DNA from: a virus
IMG/VR virus record: IMGVR_UViG_3300042511_000631
Span: 1 to 64,000 of that record
Strand: one strand, 5' to 3'
DNA length: 64,000 nucleotides
The notes under the pieces were generated by a model, which saw only the letters and a list, made by a program, of their open reading frames with translations, ran no database searches and was not told the origin of the DNA. Position 1 is the stretch's first letter, and the number at the start of each line of letters is the position of its first letter. Below are positions 1 to 30,260 of this stretch, piece by piece. Position numbers and translations under genes: made by a program.

Positions 1-120
1 CCAACTCCTCCACCGCCAACTCCTCCACCGCCAACTCCTCCACCGCCAACTCCTCCACCGCCAACTCCTCCACCGCCAACTCCTCCACCGCCAACTCCTC
101 CACCGCCAACTCCACCGCCT
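1..120 (+). repeat. 15-bp tandem repeat, seven exact copies plus one variant
   Basis: The unit ccaactcctccaccg occurs seven times without change at 1-105, followed by a variant copy at 106-120. It probably continues leftward beyond the window. It is in frame, giving PTPPP units, so copy-number change would alter rod length without shifting frame. Confidence 0.95.
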
Positions 121-240: not shown

Positions 241-249
241 GATGTGCTA

Positions 250-624: not shown

Positions 625-626
625 CC

Positions 627-863: not shown

Positions 864-865
864 GT

Positions 866-1432
866 ATGTTTAACGCAAAAACCCAAGGAAACTTTATTCC
901 TCAAGACAAGGTTGATTACATCCTTGACATTGTTTCTAAGAACGATTACTGGGAGCCGTCAAGCAGTGAGTTCTGGGACAAGCGAGTTATTAATATTTCA
1001 AAGTCCTACAGCGTAGATAAAGATCTTGGAGACTTTTTAAAGGAAACTGCGCTTAGAATTAAAGAGTTTATTGAACAAGAATACACTTTAATGGATGAGG
1101 TGTACCCAGACGTTATGACTATCAATCGGTGGTTTCCCGGAATGGAACAACCGCCTCATGCAGATGACATGACTAACACAGATGTTAAAGGTCTAGAGCA
1201 TCGAGTCTTTGGGTCAATCATTTATTTAAATACTGACTATACCGGAGGTCATACTTACTACCCTAATCACGGGGTAGAGATCGTGCCAGAGGCGGGAAAG
1301 CTAGCGGTTCACCCCGGAAACGTAGAGCATCTACATGGTGTCACTAAGCTTGAAGGAAACACCCGATACACGTTATCTGCGTTTTGGGTTCACGATAAGG
1401 ACAAGTCAATTGCCTGGCCCCTATATCAATGA
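866..1432 (+). CDS. 2-oxoglutarate/Fe(II)-dependent oxygenase (prolyl 4-hydroxylase-like)
   Basis: A 188-residue protein with the double-stranded beta-helix signature: H98-x-D100 (PPHADD), distal H157 (HLHGV) and R167 (NTRYTL) as the expected Fe(II) and 2-oxoglutarate ligands. Between them are the strand motif SIIYLN.DY.GG and the typical V.P..G.L..HPG segment. The family hydroxylates protein, nucleic-acid or small-molecule substrates using O2 and 2-oxoglutarate; the substrate cannot be read from sequence. The start is ATG 866, just after the upstream stop; an upstream in-frame extension to 842 overlaps the previous gene. The downstream DUF6065-like gene overlaps its end. Confidence 0.88.
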   Translation: MFNAKTQGNFIPQDKVDYILDIVSKNDYWEPSSSEFWDKRVINISKSYSVDKDLGDFLKETALRIKEFIEQEYTLMDEVYPDVMTINRWFPGMEQPPHADDMTNTDVKGLEHRVFGSIIYLNTDYTGGHTYYPNHGVEIVPEAGKLAVHPGNVEHLHGVTKLEGNTRYTLSAFWVHDKDKSIAWPLYQ

Positions 1433-2162
1433 CCCAGGGCATGAAGTCCCTGACAACACAATTTTAATTGTCCCACATTCTTTTGAGGACACCAGTAAGT
1501 ACAACGACATCATTCTTCCGTTAAAAGGAGAAGCTAAGCGCGACTGGTTTACATCGCATTTTTATTATTGTTTACCTCTAACCATTGGAAATCAATACGG
1601 TTTTGTTATTAAGTCTTTGCGGGATTTTGATGTGACTTGGTCAGGAGGCTTAGCTCAAGCTGAGATCACATTTACTGATGGCTTAAACGGCGCTCCTCAA
1701 ATTATTTCAAACGGTTTTGGGTCTGGGATCATTACCGTACAGAACTACTTTGCTATAAAAACTCCAATAGGCGTAAACGTCATGGTCATCCAACCGCCAA
1801 ATATGTTTACACCTGGACTTGTGGCAATGACAGCAGTTATTGAGGCTGATCAAATTCGCCGAGACTTTACCTTTAACTTAAAAATCACTGTGCCTAACTA
1901 CAAAATAAGTGTTAAGCGCGGGGACGCGGTGGGGGCATTTATCCCTATCCCTAGGTACTTTGTAGATAAGTTTGAAGTAGCTTCCGTCAAAGACGTTTTT
2001 CCTGATGAGCTTCATTTAAATGAGATATCTGAGTCAAACGCCTTAGGCCGTGAGAGGAACAACATTGACCGCAGCAGGCCACACGCGTCTGGTAGGCGGT
2101 ATTTTAACGGTAAACATGTAGATGACAGCTCCTACCCTGACCATCAAAAGCGAGTCCGCTAA
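1410..2162 (+). CDS. DUF6065-like protein
   Basis: About 250 residues. The segment KRDWF...YYCLPLTIGNQYGF...VTWSGG matches my recollection of the DUF6065 family, whose biochemical role is unknown. The start is uncertain: TTG 1410 has AAGGA about 8 nt upstream and overlaps the oxygenase by 23 nt, while an in-frame ATG at 1335 would overlap by 98 nt. Related proteins lie at 24499-25221 and, more distantly, 25208-25972, again beside 2OG oxygenases, so a joint function is likely. Confidence 0.65.
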   Translation: MPGPYINDPGHEVPDNTILIVPHSFEDTSKYNDIILPLKGEAKRDWFTSHFYYCLPLTIGNQYGFVIKSLRDFDVTWSGGLAQAEITFTDGLNGAPQIISNGFGSGIITVQNYFAIKTPIGVNVMVIQPPNMFTPGLVAMTAVIEADQIRRDFTFNLKITVPNYKISVKRGDAVGAFIPIPRYFVDKFEVASVKDVFPDELHLNEISESNALGRERNNIDRSRPHASGRRYFNGKHVDDSSYPDHQKRVR

Positions 2163-17109: not shown

Positions 17110-19992
17110 ATGGCAACAAGAATGCAACAGCGTAGGGGCACTGCGGCACAGTGGATCTCTACTAACAGTGGCAACGGTCCTATCCTAAACGCGGGCGAAA
17201 TTGGGTACGAGAGCGATACAAACAAATTTAAAATTGGTGATGGAACAAATCACTGGATCAACCTTGACTATTTTACTGATGCTAATTCAACAGTAAATCC
17301 ATCATTTGGTTCAAGCATTACATTTGAAGGCGCAACAGACAATAATTTTGAAACTACGGTTTTGGTAACTGACCCTACAGCAGATCGTACTATCACACTT
17401 CCAAACGCAACTGGTACAGTAGCGTTTACTTCAGATATTCCTTCATCAACAACAGCACTTTCAGAAGGAACAAACCTTTACTTCACAGACGAAAGAGCGC
17501 AGGATGCCGTTGGAAACAGTGTTGGAACTGGGCTTTCATACAACGATTCAACAGGTGCAATTTCTGTAACAGCAAACACTTATGATGCGTATGGTGCGGC
17601 AGCAACTGCAAAAACAGGAGCAGAATCAACGGCTTCAGGATATGTGTCAACACACGCAAACCTTACAGAAACACATGGCGCAACTGGTGCGGTAGTTGGA
17701 ACAACTAATACACAAACCCTTACTAACAAGACTCTTACATCACCAGTAATCAATACACCTACTGGAATTACAAAAACAGACGTTGGTCTATCAAGTGTTG
17801 ATAATACAACCGATGCTAATAAGCCAGTATCCACAGCAACACAAACAGCTCTTGATTTAAAAGCGCCCCTAGCCTCACCGACTTTCACAGGAACAGTGTC
17901 CCTTGACACTGGTGTCAACCTTGTATTTGAAGGTGCAACAGCAGATGCGTATGAGACCACTCTTACAGTAGTCGATCCAACTGCTGATAGAACTATTACA
18001 TTTCCAAATGCTACAGGAACAGTGGTTCTTGCTGATGGCAACGGAAATGTAACAATATCAGGAGACGTGACGGTCAATGGAGTTACCACCGTTATTAATA
18101 GCACAGTGCTTGAAGTTCAAAATGAAATTAAATTTGAAGGTACAACCGCAGACGCATTTGAGACAAGCCTTAAGGTTGTAGATCCAACTGCTGATAGAAC
18201 TATTACATTTCCAAATGCTACAGGAACAGTGGTTCTTGCTGATGCGACTCAAACTTTAGACAATAAATCCATTAACTTAAACGGAAATACTGTAACCGGA
18301 ACTATTGCTTTATTTAACACAGCTCTTTCAGACGCAGACTTTGCAACACTTGCGGGCACAGAAACATTAACAAATAAAACCTTAACAACTCCAAATATTA
18401 ATGAAGCAGTTGCCCTTACAGCAACAGCTACAGAGCTAAATGTTCTTGATGGGGTTACCTCATCTACCGCAGAATTAAACCTTCTTGACGGCGTAACATC
18501 TTCAACCGCAGAATTAAACATTCTTGACGGCGTAACCGCAACAGCGGCAGAATTAAACCTTCTTGACGGCGTAACATCTTCAACCGCAGAATTAAACATT
18601 CTTGACGGCGTAACCGCAACAGCGGCGCAAATAAATGTTCTTGCAAGCTTAACTTCATCTGCAACAGAACTAAATATCCTTGATGGTGTTACAGCGACTA
18701 CAGCAGAGATAAATAAACTTGCTGGAGTAACTGCAACTTCAGCTGAGATTAATACCTTATCTGGACTCACTTCTACCGCTGCAGAACTAAACATTCTTGA
18801 TGGCGCAACCCTTAGCGTAACAGAACTTAACTATGTTGATGGAGTTACTTCAGCTATTCAAACTCAATTAGACGCTAAGCAAGCAGTTGTTGCCAACGTT
18901 TCAGACACAGAAATTGGATACTTAGACGGTGTTACTTCATCTATCCAAACTCAACTAAATGGCAAGCAAGCAACTGTTGCCAATGTTTCAGATGTTGAGA
19001 TTGGATATCTTGATGGAGTTACTTCAAGCATTCAAACACAGATGGATGCTAAAGCACCACTAGCCTCACCAACATTTACAGGTACTGTAACATTGCCTTC
19101 TGGTACTGTAACAAGCACAATGATTCTTGATGGCACAATTGCAAATGCAGATATTAATGCTTCAGCAGCAATTGATTGGACAAAGATTGCTCCTTCATCA
19201 ACAGTATCTGCTACTGAGCTTGGTTACCTAGATGGTGTTACATCAGCTATTCAAACTCAATTAGATGCAAAAGCAGCACTATCAGCTCCTACATTTACAG
19301 GAACAGTGACTTCTACAAACGATGTTGTAGTTAATGGAAATTTAACGGTAAACGGTACAACTTTTAATGCATCATCAACTTCTATTACAATTGAAGATAA
19401 TATGCTGCAACTTGCTCATCAAAATTCAGCAAATACAGTAGATCTTGGTATTGTAGTTGGATACACAGACGGTACCGCAAAGCATGCAGGTTTTGTAAGA
19501 GATGTATCAGATGCTAAGTGGAAGTTGTTTAAGGATGTAGCAACAGAGCCAGCAACAACAGTAGCATTTGGCGAAGGTTCACTTGATGCACTTGCAGTAG
19601 GAGCTCTTGAAGCAACAACTGTAACACCTTCATCTGGTGTAGTATTCTCAGACGGTACACAAACCCTTGAAGGAACTCCTTCACGTACACCAATTATTCA
19701 AAAGACAGCGTCCTACACTCTCTCAGCATTAACTGAAAGAGATAGTTTAATTGAAGTTGCTAGTGCAAGCGGTACAACAATTACTATCCCACTAAACTCA
19801 GCGGTCGCATATCCAGTTGGAACCTCAATTGATATCCTTCAAACCTCAACAGGTCAGGTAACAATTGCAGGAGATGCTGGAGTAACAGTAAACTCAACAC
19901 CAGGATTAAAGTTAAGAACACAGTGGTCAACTGCAACTCTTTTCAAAAGAGCAACAAACACTTGGGTTGTTTACGGCGATCTGACAGCGTAA
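17110..19992 (+). CDS. large repeat-rich tail fibre protein
   Basis: 960 residues. The N-terminus (RMQQRRGTAAQWIS.....LNAGEIGYESDTNKFKIGDG) is the usual phage fibre head-binding module. It is followed by FEGAT..DPTADRTITLPNATG units, many 13-residue (T)AELNILDGVT repeats (about 440-570), ELGYLDGVTSAIQTQLDAK units and a beta-rich C-terminal domain. It probably determines receptor binding. The coding DNA has exact 64-bp and 78-bp repeats, so recombination within the gene is expected. Confidence 0.88.
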   Translation: MATRMQQRRGTAAQWISTNSGNGPILNAGEIGYESDTNKFKIGDGTNHWINLDYFTDANSTVNPSFGSSITFEGATDNNFETTVLVTDPTADRTITLPNATGTVAFTSDIPSSTTALSEGTNLYFTDERAQDAVGNSVGTGLSYNDSTGAISVTANTYDAYGAAATAKTGAESTASGYVSTHANLTETHGATGAVVGTTNTQTLTNKTLTSPVINTPTGITKTDVGLSSVDNTTDANKPVSTATQTALDLKAPLASPTFTGTVSLDTGVNLVFEGATADAYETTLTVVDPTADRTITFPNATGTVVLADGNGNVTISGDVTVNGVTTVINSTVLEVQNEIKFEGTTADAFETSLKVVDPTADRTITFPNATGTVVLADATQTLDNKSINLNGNTVTGTIALFNTALSDADFATLAGTETLTNKTLTTPNINEAVALTATATELNVLDGVTSSTAELNLLDGVTSSTAELNILDGVTATAAELNLLDGVTSSTAELNILDGVTATAAQINVLASLTSSATELNILDGVTATTAEINKLAGVTATSAEINTLSGLTSTAAELNILDGATLSVTELNYVDGVTSAIQTQLDAKQAVVANVSDTEIGYLDGVTSSIQTQLNGKQATVANVSDVEIGYLDGVTSSIQTQMDAKAPLASPTFTGTVTLPSGTVTSTMILDGTIANADINASAAIDWTKIAPSSTVSATELGYLDGVTSAIQTQLDAKAALSAPTFTGTVTSTNDVVVNGNLTVNGTTFNASSTSITIEDNMLQLAHQNSANTVDLGIVVGYTDGTAKHAGFVRDVSDAKWKLFKDVATEPATTVAFGEGSLDALAVGALEATTVTPSSGVVFSDGTQTLEGTPSRTPIIQKTASYTLSALTERDSLIEVASASGTTITIPLNSAVAYPVGTSIDILQTSTGQVTIAGDAGVTVNSTPGLKLRTQWSTATLFKRATNTWVVYGDLTA
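17974..18244 (+). repeat. 64-bp exact direct repeat in fibre gene
   Basis: 17974-18037 and 18181-18244 are identical over 64 bp, encoding DPTADRTITFPNATGTVVLAD. Spacing is 207 bp, a multiple of 3, so unequal exchange would keep the frame. Confidence 0.9.
18469..18624 (+). repeat. 78-bp exact tandem repeat in fibre gene
   Basis: 18469-18546 and 18547-18624 are identical. Each encodes two 13-residue AELN(L/I)LDGVT units; degenerate copies continue to about 18850. Confidence 0.9.
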
Positions 19993-20005: not shown

Positions 20006-21388
20006 ATGGCTAAGAAGACTGGTAAACGTTCCGCGGCATCAAACGACTTTTTAGAGCCATTAGCGCCAACAAGCGTATCTGCTACAGATGTTGGAACAGG
20101 CAGAGCGTTTAACAATGGTGCAGCCACGGTTACATTTTCTTTGCCCGCACTATCACCTGCTGCTACATCATTTACTGTAACTTCATCTCCTGGAGGATAT
20201 ACCGGAACCGGGTCATCTTCCCCAGTTACAGTCACAGGTTTGCAATCTAACACCGCCTACACATTTACCGCAACAGCAACTAACGCTTCTGGAACTTCTC
20301 AAGCATCTACGGCATCAGCTTCTATTACCGCAACAACAGTTCCTGCTCAAATGTCCGCCCCAACCCCAACTGCCGGGGTTAACCAAAACTCAATTGCTTT
20401 TTCAGCACCGGCAACTGGTGGAAAAACTATTACTAGCTTTACCATAACAGGCTCTGATGCCACTACTGGAACAGGTGCGACTTCCCCAATTACTATCGCT
20501 GATACTGGTGGAACGTCACAGACATACACAGTCACCGCAACTAACGCTAATGGAACAAGCGTTGCTTCTGCTGCGTCTGGCTCTATTACTACGTTATCCC
20601 CATTTTTCCCGCCATTCTTCCCACCGTTCTTTCCATTTTTCCCGCCATTCTTCCCACCGTTCTTTCCATTTTTCCCATTCTTCCCGCCTTTCTTCCCGCC
20701 ATTCTTCCCATTCTTCCCGCCTTTCTTCCCGCCATCATTTGGTCCTTTCTTCCCGCCATTCTTCCCATTCTTCCCGCCTTTCTTCCCGCCATCATTTGGT
20801 CCTTTCTTCCCGCCATTCTTCCCACCATACTTTGCGTATGTGCCGCCTCCAGCGTTTAGCAAAAACTCCCTAGGCCCTAACGTACTTGTTAGAGGAGAAA
20901 ACGGTTTAATTCGTGCACAAGATTTAGTACTTGGCGACGTTATTCACTCTCTTGATATTCCAGGAATTCCGCAAAACTTTAGAGAGATTGGGACAACTCC
21001 AGAGGATCTTGCGGCAATGTCTTGGGATGTAGAGGCGATCTTATCGGCAACCCCAGTACTAACTACAATTAATAGAATACAGATTGCGCAAAGAACTGGT
21101 GCGGTAATTGTAAGCGGTGAAATGTTTACACGAAACCACCGCATACTTATTGAAAGATCTGGAATTGTAAAGATTGTAAAGGCTCAAGAGCTTTTAGAAA
21201 CAGATAAGGTGTTCGATTACCAAACATCTACTTTTGTTGATATAACTCTAGAATTTATTAACGATATTGAGTTTTATTCGTATAGCATTAACTGTGAGCC
21301 GTACGATTTTTACTTAACAGAGTCTACGTTAACATTTGATAATATTGAATGGTACCCAGACGTAGACTCTCCAAACGCGGTAGAGTAA
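20006..21388 (+). CDS. fibronectin III / FPP-repeat / Hint-like protein
   Basis: 460 residues in three parts. Residues about 20-197 hold two fibronectin type III-like domains (SFTVTSSPGG...VTGLQSNTAYTFTATATNASG). Residues 199-277 are an almost pure Phe-Pro repeat (FFPPFFPPF with SFGP breaks). Residues 288-460 look like a Hint (hedgehog/intein) domain: an N-terminal NVLVRGENGLIRAQDLVLGDVI block, a FTRNHRILIE block with the TxxH-like histidine, and a final YSINCEPYDFYLTESTLTFDN block. The usual first-residue Cys and terminal HN are absent (S288, then DN), so splicing activity is doubtful. Likely a surface-exposed fibre. Confidence 0.75.
   Translation: MAKKTGKRSAASNDFLEPLAPTSVSATDVGTGRAFNNGAATVTFSLPALSPAATSFTVTSSPGGYTGTGSSSPVTVTGLQSNTAYTFTATATNASGTSQASTASASITATTVPAQMSAPTPTAGVNQNSIAFSAPATGGKTITSFTITGSDATTGTGATSPITIADTGGTSQTYTVTATNANGTSVASAASGSITTLSPFFPPFFPPFFPFFPPFFPPFFPFFPFFPPFFPPFFPFFPPFFPPSFGPFFPPFFPFFPPFFPPSFGPFFPPFFPPYFAYVPPPAFSKNSLGPNVLVRGENGLIRAQDLVLGDVIHSLDIPGIPQNFREIGTTPEDLAAMSWDVEAILSATPVLTTINRIQIAQRTGAVIVSGEMFTRNHRILIERSGIVKIVKAQELLETDKVFDYQTSTFVDITLEFINDIEFYSYSINCEPYDFYLTESTLTFDNIEWYPDVDSPNAVE
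20600..20805 (+). repeat. tandem repeats encoding the Phe-Pro rod
   Basis: A 33-bp unit is exactly duplicated (20600-20632, 20633-20665) and a 57-bp unit is exactly duplicated (20692-20748, 20749-20805). Both are multiples of 3, so rod length can change by slippage without frameshift. Confidence 0.9.
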
Positions 21389-21391
21389 AAA

Positions 21392-21904
21392 TTGATTATT
21401 TATAATGACCATAAATCCATAAAATTTAATCCTGATATAAAAGAATATCCAAAAGAATTATCTGGATCATGGTTTTGTTTTACAAAAATAGAAGGTCATC
21501 CAATTCTTGCTGGGATGTGTGCTGTTTATTTTAATGACGAATACCCAAGCGGAACAATTATAGTTTCTAACTACGTACTAGATCAATATCCAGATATATA
21601 CGCTACATGGGATAAAGACTATATGTCAAATAGAATGTTTGTATCCCCAAAATTAAGAAAAAGCGGAAAAGGCAAAAACGCACTTATTGTCGGAGATCAG
21701 TTTATTAAGTTTTTAGGAAATGAGTTACAATATTCTTATGGGGATCATGAAAATGGAGATTTTCTTTTTAATGGGGCATACTCTTTAAATAAAAAAAATG
21801 AAAACAAATATGTTAATGACCTTAACATGTTTGACTTTAGAGACTCAGCCTACCCACTAATACATTTTGATAAAAGGTTCATAAAATATGAAGTATACGC
21901 ATAG
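21392..21904 (+). CDS. hypothetical protein, weakly GNAT-like
   Basis: 170 residues from TTG 21392, AT-rich coding. The segment NRMFVSPKLRKSGKGKNALIVGDQFIKFLG (about 88-117) loosely resembles the acetyl-CoA loop and following helix of GNAT acetyltransferases, but the rest is not convincing. It opens the accessory island directly after the Hint-like fibre gene and overlaps the next gene by 17 nt. Confidence 0.5.
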   Translation: MIIYNDHKSIKFNPDIKEYPKELSGSWFCFTKIEGHPILAGMCAVYFNDEYPSGTIIVSNYVLDQYPDIYATWDKDYMSNRMFVSPKLRKSGKGKNALIVGDQFIKFLGNELQYSYGDHENGDFLFNGAYSLNKKNENKYVNDLNMFDFRDSAYPLIHFDKRFIKYEVYA

Positions 21905-22460
21905 AGATACAAAAGTATTTACTAAAAATATAGCTACATTAAACTCTGAAGATATCTTATCTTTAAAGAGTAGCACGCATAAAGATGTATACAGCTATGA
22001 GAACTTTAAAAAAATAGGATATGAAAAAATTAATAGCCCTAAAAATATATTTCAAGAATATAATGCAGAAACGTATAAAGTGTATAAAGAGATCTCAAAT
22101 CTACTAAATGACGCCTGTAATCATTATCTAATAGATCAAGAGCGGCAAAATTATTTTATTAAAGGTAAAGTGTTTGAGTACAACAAAGATCATAATAATG
22201 AGATTTTTGATTTTCCTGGGAGAGATATTCCAATTTTTCATGGGTTTGTTATTTTGGGCGAAGAGGGATTAAAGCAAACATACTACACTGATAAAAGTAA
22301 AAAAGAGTTTATTTTTAGTAAAAATACAATCACACTATCCGCACCAACAAATCTTATAAATAATAAAGTTAATAACAGCTGCAAAGTTATAGAGTACTAT
22401 ATATCCCCATTGTCATCTACTATTCAAAATGAAAAAAATCTTTGGGTTCCTATTTTATGA
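21888..22460 (+). CDS. hypothetical protein of the 2OG-oxygenase island
   Basis: 190 residues, very AT-rich coding (Lys/Asn/Ile-rich). A beta-rich C-terminal half (PIFHGFVILGEEGLKQTYYTD...TITLSAPTN.....KVIEYYISPL) could be a degenerate jelly roll, but no HxD iron motif is visible. It overlaps both neighbours (the last overlap is ATGA). Role unknown; it may be a non-catalytic relative of its neighbours. Confidence 0.5.
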   Translation: MKYTHRDTKVFTKNIATLNSEDILSLKSSTHKDVYSYENFKKIGYEKINSPKNIFQEYNAETYKVYKEISNLLNDACNHYLIDQERQNYFIKGKVFEYNKDHNNEIFDFPGRDIPIFHGFVILGEEGLKQTYYTDKSKKEFIFSKNTITLSAPTNLINNKVNNSCKVIEYYISPLSSTIQNEKNLWVPIL

Positions 22461-23038
22461 AATCGTATAGCACAAACAACTTTTTAGAAACTGATGCCTT
22501 TAATGAAGTGCACTTAGCTTGTGTAGAAAAAAGTAAAAGCTTTAGAAATATACATTATGCGAGCGGGTATGGCAGATACGGCGTTTTTATAGACTTTTCA
22601 AAAGAAATTGAAGATATTTTTGTTAAAAAAGCAAGAGAAGCCTTTAAAACAGAGGATTTATTTATTACTTACATCCAATTAGTTAAATATCAGATAGTAG
22701 AAAACAATATCCCAAGGCTCACTCCCCATATTGATGACCTGCCAGGAACACGGGTTATTGACTTGTGTGTTGACACGACTTTGAGTAATTGGGGTCTTTT
22801 GGTTAACGATACGCTGTTTATAGATACGCCTAACACGGCAATATTTTTATATGGGCAAGAAGAGATCCACTCTAGGCCAGAGTACACTTCAAACAGCCCA
22901 AAAGACTACTCTTTACAACTACTTATAAACTTTGCGCCCAAAAACTTTTGGTTTTTTAAAGGAGACTACAAAAAAGCCTTAAAATATGTAATTCCTTCCC
23001 CGGTTATGTACGGCGATGGTGTTGTAACACAAAGTTGA
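22457..23038 (+). CDS. diverged 2OG/Fe(II) oxygenase-like protein
   Basis: 193 residues from ATG 22457 (overlapping the preceding stop as ATGA). H91-x-D93 (LTPHIDDLPG) followed by WGLLVNDT...NTAIFLYGQEEIHSRPEYTS (H138, R140) fits a jelly-roll iron site. The usual YLNDDYEGGEL block and the H-x9-R/K spacing of its neighbours are absent. It is probably a distant family member, and activity is uncertain. A hairpin and a promoter-like site follow it. Confidence 0.6.
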   Translation: MKSYSTNNFLETDAFNEVHLACVEKSKSFRNIHYASGYGRYGVFIDFSKEIEDIFVKKAREAFKTEDLFITYIQLVKYQIVENNIPRLTPHIDDLPGTRVIDLCVDTTLSNWGLLVNDTLFIDTPNTAIFLYGQEEIHSRPEYTSNSPKDYSLQLLINFAPKNFWFFKGDYKKALKYVIPSPVMYGDGVVTQS

Positions 23039-23039
23039 A

Positions 23040-23064
23040 CACCAAAGCCAGTTGGTGCTATAGT
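23040..23064 (+). promoter_or_regulatory. hairpin plus extended -10 promoter candidate
   Basis: CACCAA (23040-23045) pairs with TTGGTG (23052-23057), and TGC-TATAGT (-10 at 23059-23064) follows at once. It would start transcription of the main oxygenase cluster from 23092, which has RBS GTGGAG. Confidence 0.45.
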
Positions 23065-23091
23065 TCGTAGAACTTTAAAAGTGGAGATATT

Positions 23092-23811
23092 ATGGATGTA
23101 TACAACGAGAATGAAAACCCCTGGTTTACTAAAGATCGGTCTGAGACAGCTTCCAACAGGGTTGTAAGACTAATGCCTAAAAGCAATATCCCTATTAGTA
23201 ATCCGGGACTAGGGTTAAATGTTTATCATAATACTTTTTCTTTGGATGACTCTAAAAGGTATATTAAAACGCTTGAGTCCAACTTGGCTAATGGCGGCAA
23301 ATATAAGTGGTCAGAAGCCCAAGTAACAAACTCTGACGTGCCGATTAAAAAAGCAAGAGATTGCGTAGACTTTAAGTACAAACAAGAAAATCTAGGGCCA
23401 AGAGACGAATCTAATAAAGAGTTACTTGATCTTCATGAAGAGATATATCAAAAACTAAAGATGTGTGTGGACGACTACGCACACTACTGGGGCATAAATG
23501 TTACATATTATGAAGCATTTAACTTTGTAAAATACGAAGGTGAGGGTACCCATTTTAATATTCATGCCGATCATGGCCCTGCTTACAACTGCACAGTCTC
23601 TGCGGTAATCTATATTAATGACGATTATGAAGGTGGAGAGCTTAAATTTCCAAGACTAGATAACCTTGTTCATGTCCCAAAAGTTGGTGATATAGCTATT
23701 TTCCCTTCAAACTATATTTATGAACACGCATCTTTGCCGATGAAAACAGGAACAAAATACTGTGTTGTTATCATGACAGATATAAATCTTTTAGGCCATC
23801 CGACAACTTAA
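23092..23811 (+). CDS. 2OG/Fe(II) oxygenase (prolyl 4-hydroxylase-like)
   Basis: 239 residues. Iron ligands H158-x-D160 (NIHADHG) and H212 (YEHASLP); K222 (TGTKY) is the likely 2-oxoglutarate anchor. The core block is VIYINDDYEGGELKFP, then V.KVGDIAIFPSNYIY. It is closest to the next gene in layout: both share RDCVDFK(Y/F)K near residue 90, YYEAFN..KYE before the HxD, and NCT(V/L)S after it, so they are paralogues from a duplication. Substrate unknown. Confidence 0.88.
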   Translation: MDVYNENENPWFTKDRSETASNRVVRLMPKSNIPISNPGLGLNVYHNTFSLDDSKRYIKTLESNLANGGKYKWSEAQVTNSDVPIKKARDCVDFKYKQENLGPRDESNKELLDLHEEIYQKLKMCVDDYAHYWGINVTYYEAFNFVKYEGEGTHFNIHADHGPAYNCTVSAVIYINDDYEGGELKFPRLDNLVHVPKVGDIAIFPSNYIYEHASLPMKTGTKYCVVIMTDINLLGHPTT

Positions 23812-23824
23812 ACTAGGAGAATAT

Positions 23825-24499
23825 ATGAGTACAGAACCTACAACCCCACAATCTTGGAGTAGTTATGAAGAGCTTGCTCCAGGAATATTTGTTTACCACG
23901 ACGTCTTACCAACAGGTCTAAACCTTGTTGATAGACTAGAGTCTGTTTTACAACCTTTAGGGTCTACTGGGTATGCTTGGCAACCAGCTTATGTGGGGTA
24001 TCAACAGCTAATGCCGGAGTATAGAGATTGTGTTGATTTTAAGTTTAAAAAAACAGATGTTCAAAAAGATAATTCAGAAAGCTCTAGGCAACTACAAGAA
24101 ATTTGGCAAGACTGCTACGATAGACAAGCGTTAGCGGTAGAGGATTATTGCCAACGATTTAACATCAACAACTTAAGGTATTGGGAAGCCTTTAACTATA
24201 TTAAGTATGAGGCGGGGCATCATTTTATGGAGCATCACGATCACGGGTTCTCTTATAACTGCACGCTGTCTTTAGTCGCCTATCTTAATGATACTTTTGA
24301 GGGTGGAGAGTTGTTCTTTAGACTTCAAGGGCTAACATATGTCCCAAAAGCTGGAGATGTTGTACTATTCCCGTCTAACTTTATGTACCCTCATCAAGCA
24401 AAAGTCGTTCACTCTGGGACAAAATACTCATTAGTAACAATGCTTGACTATAGTGAAAAGTACCATACACCAGACATGTATCATGAGACTGGATCATAA
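23825..24499 (+). CDS. 2OG/Fe(II) oxygenase (prolyl 4-hydroxylase-like)
   Basis: 224 residues. H137-x-D139 (EHHDHG), H190 (YPHQAK), K200 (SGTKYSLV); core VAYLNDTFEGGELFF and KAGDVVLFPSNFMYPH. Clear paralogue of the preceding gene. AGGAG precedes the ATG, and the stop overlaps the next ATG by 1 nt (TAATG), coupling it to a DUF6065-like gene. Confidence 0.88.
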   Translation: MSTEPTTPQSWSSYEELAPGIFVYHDVLPTGLNLVDRLESVLQPLGSTGYAWQPAYVGYQQLMPEYRDCVDFKFKKTDVQKDNSESSRQLQEIWQDCYDRQALAVEDYCQRFNINNLRYWEAFNYIKYEAGHHFMEHHDHGFSYNCTLSLVAYLNDTFEGGELFFRLQGLTYVPKAGDVVLFPSNFMYPHQAKVVHSGTKYSLVTMLDYSEKYHTPDMYHETGS

Positions 24500-25221
24500 T
24501 GTCAATTATTACGGCTTATAAAAAAACACCAACGGCGTTGATTATAGAGCCAATGTCTATTAAGCGCGACTGGATGGACGAAACTCCACAAGGCCATGCT
24601 TATAGGTGCCACCCGGTAACCTCCGCCAATGTTGTTGGTTGGAGCATATCTTCTCCAGTAGACATTAAGTTTATTTGGAACGGTATTAACGACACAAGCG
24701 GTACATCTGTAAAAATTTTAGAAGGTCAAACCTATGTTTATACAGGTAGAGGGCAATCTACAGTTAGCTTTAATACTGGTTTTATCCTTAAAACAAATCA
24801 AAATGTAAGTGTACTAACTGTTACACCTCAAAATTATTTTAATCCAGATATAGAAGTCATGTCTTCTTTGATATCTACATCCTTTTTAAGCACTGATTTC
24901 CCGTTAGCAATTAAGTGCCTGACAGCAAACAAAGAAATTACTATTAAAGCAGGAACTCCAATAGCAACTATCATTCCTATATCTTTGACCTCTTTAAAGG
25001 ATGAATCGGTTGAAGTTGTTGAGTTTGTTCAAACTAAAGAGTACACCGATGCGGTAACATCCTATGGCGCGGCCGCTCAAGAAATAAATAAAACCGGAGA
25101 GTGGACTGATTGGTATAGAAATGCTGTAAACGAAAAGGGGGATTCAGTAGGGTCCCATGAAGTAAAAAACTTAAAGCTTAGTGTTATTGATAATACAGGG
25201 GCTAATAATGAAAATAATTAA
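24499..25221 (+). CDS. DUF6065-like protein
   Basis: 240 residues. The segment IKRDWMDETPQGHAYRCHPVTSANVVGWSI...VDIKFIWNG has the conserved R-W-M-D, YRC.P and W.I landmarks I associate with DUF6065. The C-terminus (TGEWTDWYRNAVNEKGDSVGSHE) is also typical. Biochemical role unknown. It is translationally coupled to a 2OG oxygenase, as the similar gene at 1410 is. Confidence 0.7.
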   Translation: MSIITAYKKTPTALIIEPMSIKRDWMDETPQGHAYRCHPVTSANVVGWSISSPVDIKFIWNGINDTSGTSVKILEGQTYVYTGRGQSTVSFNTGFILKTNQNVSVLTVTPQNYFNPDIEVMSSLISTSFLSTDFPLAIKCLTANKEITIKAGTPIATIIPISLTSLKDESVEVVEFVQTKEYTDAVTSYGAAAQEINKTGEWTDWYRNAVNEKGDSVGSHEVKNLKLSVIDNTGANNENN

Positions 25222-25972
25222 TTTTATAAGCAATAGACCGTGGCTTACTAAAGAGAGTAAATCAAAACCGGTTCCGACCTCAAAGTCAATACCGCAATGG
25301 TACAAAAACGCGGATAGGTTTGCTAAAATGCCAACTGGAGAACACTACCAAGCAACAAAAGAGATGTGTCCATTCCCTAAAAAAGGCACAACTGATGATT
25401 ATGGGAAGATCCCTACATGGAAAGCTTGTCCTGCACTTTTGGATGTTTTAACAACAGGGTATACCTTGATCACTCCTTGCGACATAGAGTTTTTCTTAGA
25501 TAGCGCTGGGCAGATTGATTTTAAAATTGAAGACCCAATGTATAAAGAGTTTGTTAACAAACGCCCACCTATGCCACAATTTTATCACCCAAAGGGTTAC
25601 TACGAATATCATTTTGCTTGGTGGCCCGAATGGGCGGTAAAAGTTCCAGCTGGGTATAGCGTTTTATATGTATCTCCGTTTAATCGTTACGACATTCCAA
25701 TTATGACAGTTTCTGGGATTATTGATAACGACGAGGTTAACCTTCCTGGATTAATGCCATTTTTTGTACAAGAAGGCTGGGCTGGAGTTTTACCAGCAGG
25801 CACTCCTTACGCTCAACTGTTGCCTTTTTTAAGGGAAGATTGGAAGTCTGAAATTAACATTCCAAAAGAAGTAGAGATGATACAAAACAATATGGAAAAC
25901 AGCAAAAAGTATCGTATTGCAGATGGAGGGGTGTATCAGAAAGAGGTCTGGACTAGGCGGCTCTACGAATAG
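25208..25972 (+). CDS. conserved phage protein, distantly DUF6065-like
   Basis: 254 residues from ATG 25208 (14-nt overlap with the previous gene). Features: PTSKSIPQWYKNADRF near the start, FPKKGTTDDYGKIPTWKACPALLD (possible Cys site), TPCDIEFFLD, YHFAWWPEWAVKVPAGYSVLYVSPFNRYDIPI and GTPYAQLLPFLREDW. This layout is frequent in phages beside 2OG oxygenases; it may bind a small molecule or the modified substrate. Function unknown. Confidence 0.6.
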   Translation: MKIINFISNRPWLTKESKSKPVPTSKSIPQWYKNADRFAKMPTGEHYQATKEMCPFPKKGTTDDYGKIPTWKACPALLDVLTTGYTLITPCDIEFFLDSAGQIDFKIEDPMYKEFVNKRPPMPQFYHPKGYYEYHFAWWPEWAVKVPAGYSVLYVSPFNRYDIPIMTVSGIIDNDEVNLPGLMPFFVQEGWAGVLPAGTPYAQLLPFLREDWKSEINIPKEVEMIQNNMENSKKYRIADGGVYQKEVWTRRLYE

Positions 25973-25979
25973 GGAATGG

Positions 25980-25985
25980 TATAAT
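25980..25985 (+). promoter_or_regulatory. leaderless promoter, TATAAT 6 nt before ATG
   Basis: TATAAT with upstream TGG (extended -10) ends 6 nt before ATG 25992. No RBS is present, so the mRNA probably begins at or next to the start codon, a mode common in actinobacteria. Confidence 0.65.
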
Positions 25986-25991
25986 TAAAAC

Positions 25992-26672
25992 ATGAAACAA
26001 AACAATGACTCATACACGACAGTTAAACGCACACCGTCTATGACCCCATCTGGTTGGTTTGGGGATAGCAAGGACATGATTGTCGAGCTAGAGAACTTCA
26101 TGACGCTAGAAGAAATAGAGTTTTTAGAAAAAGCTGCTAAATCTTTAACAATTTGGGATGTAACGCAAAGCCATACGAATGAAAATGGAACCGTTACCTA
26201 TGATTCAGATTATTGGAAAGATAGGGTTGCAAGTCAACCAACCTTAGATAAAAATGATCCAAAGATATCCCCAGTAATTGCTGGACTATTCATAAGATTA
26301 AAACCAATTATTGAAGAGTTTTATAAGGTAAAGGCCCAGCCAACAGGCACAACTATTGTTAAATGGCTCCCTGGGCAGTTTCAAAACCCCCATGCTGATA
26401 AAGAGCTTCATGAAGGGCCTGATGCTGGGACACCTAATGATTTTCCAAACTATGACCTTTCAAGTTTGTTTTATCTTAATGACGATTATGAAGGTGGCGA
26501 ACTATACTTCCCACTACAGGGGGTACAGTTTAAACCTAAAAAAGGCGCTGCTTACTTCTTCCCGGGAGATAAAAATTATATTCACGGGGTTACTGAAATC
26601 AAGAGTGGTTTAAGGTTTACATGCCCACTATTTTGGGAAATAACCCGACATACAGGGGATAGGCAACCGTAA
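25992..26672 (+). CDS. 2OG/Fe(II) oxygenase
   Basis: 226 residues. H134-x-D136 (NPHADKE), H198 (YIHGVTEI), R208 (GLRFT); core SLFYLNDDYEGGELYFP and PKKGAAYFFPGD. A 20-residue insertion follows the HxD motif. It is apparently transcribed from its own leaderless promoter, so it could be expressed at a different time from the preceding genes. Substrate unknown. Confidence 0.88.
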   Translation: MKQNNDSYTTVKRTPSMTPSGWFGDSKDMIVELENFMTLEEIEFLEKAAKSLTIWDVTQSHTNENGTVTYDSDYWKDRVASQPTLDKNDPKISPVIAGLFIRLKPIIEEFYKVKAQPTGTTIVKWLPGQFQNPHADKELHEGPDAGTPNDFPNYDLSSLFYLNDDYEGGELYFPLQGVQFKPKKGAAYFFPGDKNYIHGVTEIKSGLRFTCPLFWEITRHTGDRQP

Positions 26673-26679
26673 TGACGGA

Positions 26680-26685
26680 TATAAT
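26680..26685 (+). promoter_or_regulatory. leaderless promoter, TATAAT 6 nt before ATG
   Basis: TATAAT sits exactly 6 nt before ATG 26692, with no RBS in between. The same geometry is seen at 25980, 51612, 53423 and 59548. Confidence 0.65.
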
Positions 26686-26691
26686 ACAATT

Positions 26692-27465
26692 ATGAAATCT
26701 ATTTATGATATCCCGCTTAATTCGGCCGAAGGGGCCCCTAGCTTCTTAGGCCAATTTAAGGGTAAAGTAACGCTGCTAACAAATACGACAGTGGGCTGTG
26801 GTAATGCTAATCAAATGGAAGTTCTCCAATGGCTTCAAGATAAGTACGGTGGAGATGATTTCCAAGTAGTTGCTATCCCTACTAATGACTACTGTGGCCC
26901 TGGCGTTACTAAGGGCAAGTGGTCACAAGGCATTACTTGTGGCTTAGACTCACAAGAGTATGGCAAAGACACTTATGGGACTACCTTTAAGTTTTCAGAG
27001 ATGGTTGCGTCAAACCCAAATAAAAGTGCTAATGAAATGAGCCCTCACAAAGGAAATGACTCTGTAAATGGGTTAGGTCAACCTAAACAAAAAACTCATG
27101 AGCTGTATAAAGAAATATCAGATCAAATGCTTGCGTATGCCGCAAAACAAAAAGAGCTCGGCATTCCAGATAGAGATGGGTATATGTCACCTTGGCTAAA
27201 TCAACCTGTCGCTAATGGAGCAATGCAAGGCGGAAACTTTGAAAAGTATCTTATTGATAAAGACGGATTTGTGGCAAATTGGTTCCAATGTACCGTTTTA
27301 AATTATGATATTGAAAAAACCCTTAAAGAAGATTTAATAGCTAAAGGCACCCCTGCTGCTATGGGAGAAGGCAGAACTCCAGAAGTATTTGAAGAAGAAT
27401 ATAACCTTGTTCAACAAGAGATAGAAAAATTAATTGCTGGAGATAAATCCCTTATAAATAACTAA
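26692..27465 (+). CDS. glutathione-peroxidase-like (thioredoxin-fold) protein
   Basis: 257 residues. The pattern SIYDIPLNSAEG..SFLGQFKGKVTLLTNTTVGCGNANQ...L..LQDKYG...FQVVAIPTNDY is that of glutathione peroxidases, with C36 at the peroxidatic Cys/Sec position. KYLIDKDGFVANWF near residue 192 matches the late conserved strand. A 60-residue central insertion and a helical C-terminus are unusual. It may protect oxidation-sensitive Fe(II) enzymes or detoxify peroxide made by uncoupled oxygenases; this is inference. It is leaderless. Confidence 0.75.
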   Translation: MKSIYDIPLNSAEGAPSFLGQFKGKVTLLTNTTVGCGNANQMEVLQWLQDKYGGDDFQVVAIPTNDYCGPGVTKGKWSQGITCGLDSQEYGKDTYGTTFKFSEMVASNPNKSANEMSPHKGNDSVNGLGQPKQKTHELYKEISDQMLAYAAKQKELGIPDRDGYMSPWLNQPVANGAMQGGNFEKYLIDKDGFVANWFQCTVLNYDIEKTLKEDLIAKGTPAAMGEGRTPEVFEEEYNLVQQEIEKLIAGDKSLINN

Positions 27466-27481
27466 ACGGAGCACAAGCACA

Positions 27482-28237
27482 ATGAATCTAGAAAACAAAA
27501 AAAGAATAACAAAAGACATAGTTGTTTATAAGAACTTTATAAGCAGAGAAGACTGCAAAAAAATGATTCAAGCCTTAGATGCTCAAGCGGACAACGGGGC
27601 AATTTCTTGGATGCCTATTTCATTTTATGAGTCATACTCTTCAGTATTGCCACAAGACAACGATAAAGAAATAATTGATGCTGGGCTATCTCCAACTATA
27701 TTCTCAGACATTGAAAAAATAATGCCAGAGGCAATTGCTTCAGTTCACGACTTAGACCCAAAAACAATTTCTAAAATCGGGTATCACACACAAAAATGGG
27801 AGCCGGGAGCATACGCAAGAATCCACTCTGACAATACGGATGCGCATGGAAAGTCAGGGGCATTTACAAGAAGCCGTTACGCAGGTTTTCTATATCTTAA
27901 TGATGACTTTAAAGGAGGATTACTTAAGTTTCCAAGTCAACACATAGAGATCAAACCAGAAGTTGGAATGCTTGCCGTTTTTGACGGGGGATTTAACAAC
28001 ATGCACGAAGTATCTTTAATAGAGAGCGGAGTAAGGTACACCATTGGATCTTTCTGGGATGATAGAGAAGAGTCAGATTATCCGCAAGAACTAAGAGATG
28101 CTTGGGCTGCAGAAATGAAAGAGACTAGAGCTCAACAAGAAGTTGAACGAGCAGAGTGGCAAGATTTGCTTAAGCAGGGCTGGAAGCTAGATGCGGACGG
28201 TAATAAATACAAAGTAAAAGAGACTACAAATGATTGA
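27482..28237 (+). CDS. 2OG/Fe(II) oxygenase with C-terminal helical tail
   Basis: 251 residues. H115-x-D117 (ARIHSDNTD), H175 (NMHEVSLI), R185 (GVRYTIGSFW); core GFLYLNDDFKGGLLKFP and EVGMLAVFDGG. The last 50 residues form a charged helix (ELRDAWAAEMKETRAQQEVERAEWQDLL) followed by GWKLDADGNKYKVK, absent from the paralogues and possibly a substrate-docking element. RBS CGGAG. It overlaps the next gene by 8 nt. Confidence 0.88.
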   Translation: MNLENKKRITKDIVVYKNFISREDCKKMIQALDAQADNGAISWMPISFYESYSSVLPQDNDKEIIDAGLSPTIFSDIEKIMPEAIASVHDLDPKTISKIGYHTQKWEPGAYARIHSDNTDAHGKSGAFTRSRYAGFLYLNDDFKGGLLKFPSQHIEIKPEVGMLAVFDGGFNNMHEVSLIESGVRYTIGSFWDDREESDYPQELRDAWAAEMKETRAQQEVERAEWQDLLKQGWKLDADGNKYKVKETTND

Positions 28238-28889
28238 GCCCTTTAAACAACAGTTGATAGATAGCGGGTATGTAGTTACAGATATTACCCCAGAACTATT
28301 TTCTGTTGAAAACTTTTTATCACAAGATCAACTAAATACTTTTTGGGATATTATCCACAGTACGTCTCAAGAAGATTGGGAAGTAGAGTACCACGCAAAC
28401 TTAAAGTATTTTTGCATGGAAAAATTTGGCAGAGATGATGTTGATAACCTGGTTGCTGAAGGTAAGTTTGAAATTACTCAAAATTGGAAAGATAAAAACT
28501 TTAATATATTACATCACGAGATCCAGAGGCCATTATATGACGGCTTAAACTCAATGGTAGTCAAAGCTGATCCAGAGTTAATTTTAAGTGGTTTTGCAAC
28601 AATTCAAAGAATGCAAACAGGAGTAGAACTAAAAGCTCATACTGACCAAAAAACAGACCCCTCTATAAAATACGCTACGATTGTATATATTAATGATGAC
28701 TATGCAGATGGCGAGTTATTTTTTCCAAACCTGGGGATCCAGTTAAAGCCTAAACCAGGAACTATGTTGTTTTTTCCAGGTAATGAGCAATATGAGCATG
28801 GGGTTAAGCACGTAGGTGAGGGCCAAATAAGATACGTTCTTGTTGGCTTTATTAAAGAAAAATATCACTATCAAAATAATAAATACTAG
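28230..28889 (+). CDS. 2OG/Fe(II) oxygenase
   Basis: 219 residues. H137-x-D139 (KAHTDQKT), H190 (YEHGVKHV), R201 (QIRYVLVGF); core TIVYINDDYADGELFFP and PKPGTMLFFPGNEQYEHG. The N-terminal half is helical and unlike the other paralogues. Its start lies within the end of the preceding oxygenase gene, suggesting coupled translation. Confidence 0.87.
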   Translation: MIEPFKQQLIDSGYVVTDITPELFSVENFLSQDQLNTFWDIIHSTSQEDWEVEYHANLKYFCMEKFGRDDVDNLVAEGKFEITQNWKDKNFNILHHEIQRPLYDGLNSMVVKADPELILSGFATIQRMQTGVELKAHTDQKTDPSIKYATIVYINDDYADGELFFPNLGIQLKPKPGTMLFFPGNEQYEHGVKHVGEGQIRYVLVGFIKEKYHYQNNKY

Positions 28890-28899
28890 GGAGCATTAA

Positions 28900-29589
28900 A
28901 TGGATAAAGAAATTTTAAATGAAAAAGTATACTACTATAAAAATGGCGTTAAAAACTTTGAAGAGCTTATGAAAAATGTTTATGAGTTAGACAATCTAGA
29001 TAACCCTCAACCTTGGGAAAACTGGACCGCATCCAACGACAAAAACTTTATCTATGGAAAAACCATGTCATTTGATAAAAACCAAATAGGAAAACTAGAA
29101 GATCCGTACAAATCTAAAATGTCTTATATTTTTGATACTATTATGGAATCATTTTATGATGTCTCTAAAGATTTTGCCATGTCTATTGGGGATACTGATG
29201 AACCTAGACTGTTTCCAGTATTTAATATTAAAAAATACAATGTTGGAATTGGAATGGGTGCCCATTTTGACCAGCTAGATGGGGATCAAACCCTAAGGTA
29301 CTCTTTAGTTATGTATTTAAACGATGATTTTGAGGGTGGAGAAATATCATTTAAATTATCTGACTATAAAAATATAGGGGAATTTCCAACTCCAAATCTT
29401 GATTATGATGTGGCTGTTGCAAATAATGAAATTGATTTTGGATTAAAACCTAAAGCTGGAAGTATTATTATTTTTCCATCTATGGCGCCATATCACCATA
29501 CTGCTCATATTGTAAAAACTGGATTTAAATATATGGTGCCAAGTCACTGGATCCATAATAATATGGACCTTCATCAAAGTCACATGTAA
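28900..29589 (+). CDS. 2OG/Fe(II) oxygenase
   Basis: 229 residues. H122-x-D124 (GAHFDQLDG), H200 (PYHHTAHIV), K210 (GFKYMVPSHW); core LVMYLNDDFEGGEISF. A 25-residue insertion (about 155-180) separates this block from PKAGSIIIFPS. RBS AGGGAG lies upstream. It is followed after 5 nt by the short-chain dehydrogenase, so a two-step oxidation (hydroxylation, then dehydrogenation) is conceivable but unproven. Confidence 0.87.
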   Translation: MDKEILNEKVYYYKNGVKNFEELMKNVYELDNLDNPQPWENWTASNDKNFIYGKTMSFDKNQIGKLEDPYKSKMSYIFDTIMESFYDVSKDFAMSIGDTDEPRLFPVFNIKKYNVGIGMGAHFDQLDGDQTLRYSLVMYLNDDFEGGEISFKLSDYKNIGEFPTPNLDYDVAVANNEIDFGLKPKAGSIIIFPSMAPYHHTAHIVKTGFKYMVPSHWIHNNMDLHQSHM

Positions 29590-29594
29590 TATAA

Positions 29595-30260
29595 ATGAAA
29601 ACAGCTATTGTAACTGGGGCAAGCAAAGGGGTAGGGTTAGCAACAGTTAAACGCCTGTCTGAAAATGGGTACAAGGTCATCGCTGTTTCAAGAGATCTTT
29701 CCAAAGTGTCTGAGCTTGTTTCTGATAACGTTGAGGTCTATAGGCTAGACATTACAGACTCTAAAGCAATAGAAATATTCTTTGAAAAATATAAAAATAT
29801 AACCCTAGACCTTTTAGTTAACAACGCAGGTGGCGGCTCTGGACCAACCCACATTATTAATGAAACTCCAGAAAACTTTAGAAGAGCCTACGATATAAAC
29901 GTAACGGGCCCTATGTATTTATCTCAACTATTTGTACCCTGTATGAGAAGGTCACAATCTCCAACAATTGTCTTTATTACCTCTTTTGGCGGTAAGGTGC
30001 CCTATCGCGGTGGGGGGAACTATACAAATGCCAAGAGGGGTGAGCGCGGTCTAATTGACACCATGAGGCTTGAGTTTCCTCAATTTGGCATTAAAATTAC
30101 AGATATCTGCCCAGCTACCATCGACACCCAAGAACAAAAACGGGATCAGGCGTTAACCGCAGAGGATTTAGCGGAAGCTATTTACTGGGTGGGGTCATTA
30201 CCAAGCCATGTTAATATAAATGAGATTGAAATTTGTCATATTAACAGTAGTAAGTACTGA
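29595..30260 (+). CDS. short-chain dehydrogenase/reductase
   Basis: 221 residues. Rossmann fold with cofactor motif TGASKGVG (7-14), NNAG (76-79) and catalytic S130, Y143, K147 (YTNAK). R33 after the second strand (VSRD) suggests NADP(H) preference. The family interconverts alcohols and carbonyls on sugars, lipids, nucleosides and other substrates. It is the last gene of the accessory island. It may act on the product of a neighbouring oxygenase or on a surface sugar. Confidence 0.88.
   Translation: MKTAIVTGASKGVGLATVKRLSENGYKVIAVSRDLSKVSELVSDNVEVYRLDITDSKAIEIFFEKYKNITLDLLVNNAGGGSGPTHIINETPENFRRAYDINVTGPMYLSQLFVPCMRRSQSPTIVFITSFGGKVPYRGGGNYTNAKRGERGLIDTMRLEFPQFGIKITDICPATIDTQEQKRDQALTAEDLAEAIYWVGSLPSHVNINEIEICHINSSKY

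Follow-up and report, generated by a model that had tools for sequence, protein, structure and literature searches.

The stretch of DNA analysed in this study (the window) comprises 64,000 nucleotides, positions 1 to 64,000 of the IMG/VR record IMGVR_UViG_3300042511_000631. It belongs to a freshwater bacterial virus and encodes six prolyl-hydroxylase-like enzymes in a row, adjoining the gene of a tail-fibre-like Phe-Pro repeat protein. Unless indicated otherwise, all features are located on the plus strand. The repeat fibre (20006..21388; 460 aa) had been reported in an earlier note on the same DNA, and both the gene and its coordinates were confirmed. It comprises FN3 domain(s) (PF00041, 3.7e-6), a (P)PFF tract of FFP and FFPP units (residues ~198-290; DNA ~20600-20875) and a C-terminal Hint-like domain, and is the proposed substrate of the enzymes. 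Homologues were found in 185 loci, with weak Hint_2 / Intein_splicing matches in those of L203, L110 and L080. Since different codons are intermixed for Pro (CCA/CCG/CCT) and for Phe (TTC/TTT) while the amino-acid pattern is preserved, the tract is not a chance reading frame. An antisense ORF (20347-20862; Gly/Lys/Asn-rich) was rejected, as it mirrors the FFP tract. Likewise, a collagen-like (GXY)n reading of the window's fibres was rejected, because the tracts consist of FFP/FFPP or TPPPP and lack Gly at every third residue. Just upstream, another fibre protein (17110..19992; 960 aa) is repeat-rich and carries an Mtd_N domain (PF18454, 3.1e-11) as well as PHROG tail fibre/minor tail matches.

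Downstream of the repeat fibre, the array begins with an unidentified 170-aa gene (21392..21904; GNAT-like by eye, no Pfam match) and a 190-aa protein without identity (21888..22460). Both have homologues in 8 loci; the former occurs only with the window's subtype of array, to which the latter also belongs. They are followed by a diverged 2-oxoglutarate (2OG) oxygenase (22442..23038), which has no Pfam match and was recognized by a family alignment with invariant H96xD98...H143.R145. The 2OG oxygenases proper are o1 (23092..23811; PF13640, 7e-11), o2 (23825..24499; 2.1e-12), o3 (25992..26672; 1.4e-8), o4 (27482..28237; 9.1e-8), o5 (28230..28889; 1e-10) and o6 (28900..29589; 4.2e-9). Thus, of the five clear oxygenases and one diverged member listed in the earlier note, the cluster and the diverged member are real, but the clear enzymes number six. 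Its two DUF6065-like proteins are present between o2 and o3, namely D (24499..25221; PF19541, 1.1e-31) and the related protein B (25181..25972), which has no Pfam match and shares phrog_7084 (7.7e-30) with D. A glutathione-peroxidase (GSHPx)/thioredoxin-fold protein (26692..27465; PF00255, 2.5e-8; homologues in 11 loci) takes a position held by a second o1-type 2OG in many other arrays, according to the array orders, and a short-chain dehydrogenase (SDR; 29595..30260; PF00106, 8.3e-40; homologues in 76 loci) closes the array. Of 69 complete arrays, 65-68 contain orthologues of the six 2OG enzymes, arranged in a fixed order.

A second, smaller module is located at the left edge of the window (1-2162). 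It starts with the C-terminus of an FN3-(TPPPP)n protein (1..241, from the translation), whose 5′ part lies at the opposite end of the 96,518-bp record (95437-96518). Closure of the record, joining both parts, is likely; it is not proven, because the joining 113-bp terminal repeat falls inside the TPPPP tandem repeat. Then follow a small non-Cys protein of 126 aa (244..624; homologues in 42 loci), the 2OG oxygenase o0 (842..1432, likely start 866; PF13640, 4.9e-7) and the DUF6065 protein D0 (1335..2162; PF19541, 2.1e-32). The repeat, the 2OG and the DUF6065 protein had been described correctly before, while the supposed small Cys protein turned out to be the Cys-rich tail of the repeat protein itself. 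Among 12 distinct o0+D pairs with more than 4 kb of upstream sequence, 11 have a VTPP/TPPPP/poly-Pro-type ORF, so that this diverged second module also goes with a repeat. Counting against such a pairing, another Pro-rich ORF of the record (90464-92914) is without an adjacent 2OG.

All of o1-o6 and o0 contain a 2OG-FeII_Oxy_3 domain above the Pfam gathering score. The HxD...H iron triad and the Lys/Arg 2-oxoglutarate anchor are invariant in the alignments of o1 (A4; HxD, H, K), o3, o4, o5, o6 and o0 (A9), and these residues are also present in o2 of the window. Profile searches against the PDB were performed for o1, o3 and o0 only, and Foldseek was used among the oxygenases for o1 only. By sequence, the natural PDB matches were mostly P4H, P3H1 and LH3, the nearest being P4H/LH3 for o1, P3H1 and B. 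anthracis P4H for o3, and P3H1 and P4H (E 3e-7) for o0. For the AF2 model of o1, prolyl hydroxylases made up 44 of the best 50 Foldseek matches, led by algal P4H, PBCV-1 P4H and PHD2; the best was an algal P4H with a (Ser-Pro)5 peptide (PDB 3gze). The tested enzymes are hence closest to prolyl hydroxylases (o1, o3 and o0 by sequence, o1 by fold), with catalysis being inferred. Marine cyanophage homologues share 24-33% identity, and a match to phrog_61 was also obtained.

The association of repeat and oxygenases was analyzed in hundreds of relatives. HMMs for 2OG, D and B were built and iterated in the analysis, and ORFs were called by a simple greedy rule; counts are thus approximate to a few percent. 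An FFP protein was observed within 3 kb upstream of every one of the 63 DUF6065-retrieved arrays (at least three genes each) for which upstream sequence was available, in 34 as the immediate neighbour; 17 arrays were cut by contig ends. Oxygenase/DUF6065 clusters without a proline repeat, named in the earlier note as what would refute its reading, were therefore not encountered in this set. Conversely, 92 of 104 FFP proteins with sufficient flanking sequence have 2OG/DUF6065 genes within 3 kb, and for 10 of the other 12 a 2OG lies elsewhere, so that 102/104 have 2OG genes on the same record. For one syntenic slot, loci were fetched irrespective of 2OG. After deduplication, 47 slots had both FFP and 2OG, 24 had neither, one had FFP only and none had 2OG only (Fisher 3e-18). 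This concordance (71/72) supports the idea that the phage hydroxylates its own repeat rods, albeit only comparatively. Because retrieval of the relatives relied on similarity and the module may travel as one cassette, independent events are few: supported branches yielded four independent pairs, essentially all of them pointing the same way (p 0.125).

Such joint movement also allows a reading in which the oxygenases act on a surface glycan, another tail protein or a host protein, their link to the FFP fibre resulting merely from the membership of both in an exchangeable host-range cassette. In line with this, the module is exchanged as a unit in one slot, the FFP tips vary as in receptor-binding proteins (Cys-rich, Hint-like, S74-like), and single 2OG genes without a Pro repeat beside them exist in relatives (L309, L317, L332). 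SDR and GPx-like genes are nearby, as are GT61, FkbM and UDP-sugar dehydrogenase genes in relatives. We nevertheless regard this explanation as unlikely, though it deserves to be kept in mind: the 2OGs are absent where a similar FN3 and Hint-like fibre has a Pro-poor tract, a separate 2OG+DUF6065 set accompanies other repeat chemistry (VTPP, TPPPP, poly-Pro), and the enzymes group with peptidyl-prolyl hydroxylases.

The Pro-poor slots also bear on which residue of the fibre is modified. Some or all oxygenases could hydroxylate Phe, Tyr or Thr/Ser of P(P)-[F/Y/T/S]-F instead of Pro, since the tract contains as much Phe as Pro, with Phe as the second residue after Pro in 4319/4358 tract units, a set of six enzymes is large if proline is the only target, and an Asp/Asn-hydroxylase-like relative lies nearby in L232. 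However, slots in which the FN3 protein has a Phe-rich, Pro-poor tract (Phe 28-42%, Pro 10-25% of 40 aa) contain B and lack the 2OGs, and for this reason the enzymes track proline, not phenylalanine. Modification of Phe was accordingly disfavoured. As Phe-free TPPPP/VTPP/poly-Pro repeats have their own o0 and the nearest structures are prolyl hydroxylases, a target residue other than proline appears improbable. Proline as the modified residue remains an inference.

The DUF6065 proteins raise the question of nucleotides. The AF2 model of D (pLDDT 90) resembles dUTPases in Foldseek (E 3.3e-5; target TM 0.69), and the best hmmsearch match of D was WSSV dUTPase (E 0.0097). The DUF6065 alignment (A3) has few invariant columns. 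D is dUTPase-like by resemblance of its predicted fold only, and dUTPase catalysis is not claimed. Together with weak Tet_JBP matches and halovirus B homologues near thymidylate synthase/RNR, this resemblance could suggest that the 2OGs act on bases, with the dUTPase-fold DUF6065 protein handling nucleotides. Yet the array lies among virion genes and not among replication genes, the Tet_JBP matches are far below the family cut-off, and no DNA glycosyltransferase was found in the array. Moreover, array presence follows the repeat tract in the slot test, which disfavours DNA modification; we consider it highly improbable.

Overall, the phage probably uses the oxygenases to hydroxylate prolines in its own repeat fibre, although enzyme activity and virion hydroxyproline are undemonstrated. 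The cluster would then be a post-translational modification module serving this fibre. The FN3-(FFP/FFPP)n-tip protein would be produced along with the neighbouring tail-fibre proteins, and its tract prolines would be hydroxylated by the six 2OG/Fe(II) oxygenases in the infected cell before assembly, a timing that is inferred. The six enzymes would probably differ in preferred site, whether the P that follows FF, the first or the second P of PP, or the 3- as opposed to the 4-position; o0 and DUF6065 would form a separate, smaller set for the TPPPP fibre at the left edge. Regarding their inferred roles, D might act alongside the oxygenases and its relative B might go with the repeat fibre itself. 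Possible effects, likewise inferred, are solubility or rigidity of a very hydrophobic rod, or glycan attachment.

For several relatives, a GT60-type glycosyltransferase might then add GlcNAc to hydroxyproline. PF11397 (GT60) genes were located at most three genes from a 2OG, DUF6065 or diverged 2OG gene in 15/18 distinct cases, and several lineages have the gene inserted between the repeat, 2OG and D genes. Since DUF6065 served to fetch these loci, a certain proximity is to be expected (background 38%). No PF11397 match was found in the record of the window phage, and the search controls gave none either; glycosylation of hydroxyproline, itself inferred, can therefore be claimed for some relatives only. 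Further points against this step are that GT60-like genes in jumbo phages have a different context, that the GT60 polypeptide GlcNAc-transferase of T. cruzi modifies Thr, and that Thr-containing repeats occur in some GT60 loci. GT60 covers this enzyme (PMC6939170) and is also the family of the hydroxyproline-Skp1 GlcNAc-transferase Gnt1 (PMC3515798, PMC6939170). In the Skp1 pathway (PhyA and Gnt1), a cytosolic 2OG prolyl hydroxylase precedes the GT60 enzyme, comparable to PF11397 beside 2OG in the relatives, but a single Pro of a eukaryotic ubiquitin-ligase subunit is modified and no repeat rod is involved. Only tentatively, and with somewhat less than even confidence, we propose that six dedicated prolyl hydroxylases, together with the dUTPase-fold proteins D and B, form a phage-encoded assembly line that sets a defined hydroxylation pattern on (FFP/FFPP)n rods, with related phages adding HyPro-GlcNAc and with separate enzyme sets for FFPP and for TPPPP/VTPP/poly-Pro repeats.

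Hydroxyproline is a modification usually linked with eukaryotes. If the proposal is true, bacterial viruses make it, and probably HyPro-glycans, via a six-enzyme set tied to a repeat sequence, so that hydroxylated or glycosylated Phe-Pro fibre chemistry would exist in these viruses. For the P4H of the algal virus PBCV-1, Pro-rich viral repeat proteins were reportedly proposed as substrates by Eriksson in 1999, and we know of no pairing of that P4H with a fibre gene. The PBCV-1 enzyme (PDB 5c5t), among the leading fold matches of o1, is likewise virus-encoded, but it is one enzyme of a eukaryotic virus, whereas the FFP fibre of the phage is accompanied by six orthologous enzymes and DUF6065 in a fixed order. 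It is cited (Eriksson 1999) in PMC9301287 and PMC7019647; according to the latter (ref. 162), hydroxyproline was reportedly undetected in the virion despite the P4H. Algal/plant P4Hs (PDB 3gze, 2jig) hydroxylate Pro-rich non-collagen rods (extensin-like (Ser-Pro)n / poly-Pro), but these are eukaryotic cell-wall proteins without FFPP repeats or DUF6065. Phage 2OG-Fe(II) oxygenases/P4Hs of the same superfamily have been described as auxiliary metabolic genes (PMC9301287, PMC12774648). Such genes are widespread in aquatic phages, with a use described as cryptic (the substrate "remains cryptic"; PMC9301287) or merely as a likely advantage (PMC12774648), whereas a substrate protein is proposed here from synteny. 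In the part of PMC10202952 considered here, on cultured Nanopelagicales phages, no 2OG array is mentioned. The virion's own proline-repeat fibre is a specific, testable candidate substrate for phage 2OGs. If this is true, the widespread occurrence of prolyl-hydroxylase-like enzymes in phages would be accounted for, and phage genes of a common type regarded as "metabolic" would serve virion maturation instead.

The FFP tract deserves attention beyond its enzymes. A scan of 84,980 bacterial and archaeal genomes revealed no FFP DNA pattern, and at least 120 matches were obtained in viral contigs; the tract therefore represents, by itself, an unusual type of viral rod. A tblastn search of 50,697 phage records with the FFP protein, D and D0 gave no match, and no named phage of this collection has a close relative of any of them. 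In some relatives, a GPQG-type fibre (L254_15) is located just upstream.

The cluster at 20006-30260 has virion/tail-fibre genes on one side and the tail sheath on the other. Its repeat protein (20006-21388), here called the FFP protein, consists of an FN3 domain, a (P)PFF tract and a C-terminal domain. Downstream of it are six 2OG-FeII_Oxy_3 proteins (o1-o6); one diverged 2OG protein of the cluster has an invariant HxD...H.R. A DUF6065 protein (24499-25221) and its relative, protein B (25181-25972), share phrog_7084. The cluster further encodes an SDR and a GPx-fold protein, and two more of its genes are unidentified. Across 69 distinct complete arrays of 2OG and DUF6065 genes, gene order was nearly constant: o1-o6 were each found in 65-68, the DUF6065 protein in 69 and protein B in 68. 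The GPx/thioredoxin-fold protein (26692-27465) occupies the spot that a second o1-type oxygenase takes in many other arrays.

Metal and 2OG ligands were invariant across all six group alignments made. With designed proteins and weak tail matches set aside, profile searches against the PDB matched prolyl 4-hydroxylases (B. anthracis, Chlamydomonas, PBCV-1, human), prolyl 3-hydroxylase 1 and procollagen lysyl hydroxylases; the o3 search also matched PiuC. For the AF2 model of o1 (pLDDT 77), prolyl hydroxylases made up 44 of the best 50 Foldseek matches, led by an algal P4H with bound (Ser-Pro)5.

The earlier note had inferred that the phage hydroxylates its own proline-repeat rods, which an oxygenase/DUF6065 cluster without a proline repeat would refute. 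A search of viral contigs that took the 24499 protein as query matched 155 relatives, 80 loci of which were examined. No such cluster was found: among these 80 listed loci, an FFP protein lay at most 3 kb upstream in 63/63 arrays (at least three genes) having upstream sequence, as the very next gene in 34; 17 arrays cut by contig ends were excluded. The sole apparent exception (L027) was a split of the same array. A DNA-pattern scan for PFFPPFFPPFFPFFP gave at least 120 viral stretches and none in 84,980 bacterial/archaeal genomes. Among the matches listed, 92 of 104 FFP proteins with room had 2OG/DUF6065 genes within 3 kb downstream; of the other 12, three were in loci holding an array, seven more on records with 2OG elsewhere, and two, on 38 and 48 kb records, without any 2OG.

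Loci were also fetched via a gene upstream of the fibre (16619), blind to 2OG content. Between this gene and a downstream gene of ~677 aa lies a single exchangeable slot. After removal of duplicates and addition of the earlier loci, 47 slots held FFP and 2OG, 24 neither, one FFP without 2OG and none 2OG without FFP (Fisher 3e-18, with kinship lowering the number of independent events); the lone FFP slot has an array elsewhere on its record. When phylogeny was considered, four pairs on supported branches remained, and essentially all of them point the same way (p = 0.125). Because phylogenetically independent switches are few, room is left for a co-travelling cassette instead of an enzyme-substrate pairing. 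Protein B was present in ten deduplicated slots without FFP, eight of which hold an FN3 protein whose tract is rich in Phe and poor in Pro, e.g. (GAF)n or FGFTPF, and whose tail is Hint-like; no 2OG lies in any of these slots. The oxygenases therefore track proline, and B tracks the repeat fibre in a more general way. As a side observation, a second, Phe-rich rod family occupies the slot behind the fibre gene (L309, L313, L315, L319, L320, L325, L326, L332): its members are FN3+Hint-like proteins whose tract is (GAF)n, FGFTPF or FVPYSF, with B alone downstream.

A second module lies at the left edge. Its FN3-(TPPPP)n protein, which has a Cys-rich tail, precedes a small protein, a 2OG (842-1432) and a DUF6065 protein (1335-2162). 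With the latter as query, 46 loci were fetched; 12 distinct pairs of 2OG and DUF6065 had more than 4 kb of sequence upstream. An upstream ORF with at least 40% Pro in 30 aa was found for 11 of them, with (VTPP)n, (TPPPP)n, poly-Pro, PPVFTPPP and similar repeats; in the twelfth, a Pro-rich tail is present but weaker. Two DUF6065 loci that lack a 2OG also lack such a repeat.

Relatives also carry putative glycosylation genes. PF11397 (GlcNAc; GT60) is the family of the HyPro-Skp1 GlcNAc-transferase and also includes a T. cruzi polypeptide GlcNAc-transferase (PMC6939170). Gene orders include Pro-repeat/2OG/GT60/DUF6065, and 15 of 18 distinct copies lie at most three genes from a 2OG, DUF6065 or diverged 2OG gene (background adjacency 38%; loci fetched via DUF6065). 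The T. cruzi enzyme acts on Thr, and Thr is present in some repeats at GT60 loci, a caveat to the HyPro reading. PF11397 had no match in the window phage itself, where search controls were likewise silent; other relatives encode GT61, an O-FucT-like protein or a UDP-sugar dehydrogenase. The note's inference that the phage hydroxylates its own rods withstood the refutation test and gains strength from the slot experiment, the contrast between Phe and Pro, the fold shared with prolyl hydroxylases and the GT60 genes nearby; this support is comparative, and no hydroxyproline was measured.

In 150 distinct FFP tracts, F-runs comprise 1-2 residues, as do P-runs, with five exceptions of 3. Residue 1 after Pro is F, Y, T or S, and residue 2 is Phe in 4319/4358 units; mixed synonymous codons encode the tract. 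The tip beyond it varies (Cys-rich knot-like, Hint-like, S74-like or short). The Cys-rich, knottin-like mini-domains at the ends of FFP rods are very variable (e.g. L018_5, L020_1, L077_2, L096_4, L144_4), as if the rod presented an exchangeable receptor-binding tip. The C-terminal domain gave weak Hint matches in homologues. This Hint-like domain (intein/hedgehog type; 20880-21388 in the window; homologues L080, L110, L203, L163, L183) makes autoprocessing of the tip possible; its starting Cys is kept in homologues and appears absent from the window copy.

The best Foldseek matches of the DUF6065 AF2 model (pLDDT 90) were dUTPases (E 3e-5, TM by target ~0.7), echoed by a weak profile match of WSSV dUTPase. 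The predicted dUTPase-like fold is recorded as a resemblance; activity is unknown. Homologues of B occur in cultured haloviruses, close to baseplate/adhesin genes and without an annotated 2OG in the vicinity. They share 23-29% identity and include L338 and L339 (HSTV-2 gene 40, HRTV-17 gp35) and other HF1/HF2-type (archaeal) haloviruses, near tail fibre/adhesin genes.

The window covers positions 1-64,000 of its parent record (96,518 bp, IMG/VR) and belongs to a contractile-tailed actinophage genome, with WhiB, SPP1-type portal, terminase, tail sheath and baseplate J as well as DnaB, family-A DNA polymerase and RecA. The record's first 113 bp equal its last 113 bp. The genome is likely to close into a circle, but this is not certain, because the terminal repeat falls inside the TPPPP tandem DNA repeat (window 1-160 and record end) and the closure could be an assembly artefact. 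An 816-aa ORF outside the window (record 90464-92914) has long PTPTP/EPSP Pro-rich stretches and no adjoining 2OG. Upstream of the terminase gene lie a secreted lysozyme-like protein, assigned by eye (3499-4008, minus strand), and a CHAP endolysin (4481-5041, plus strand).
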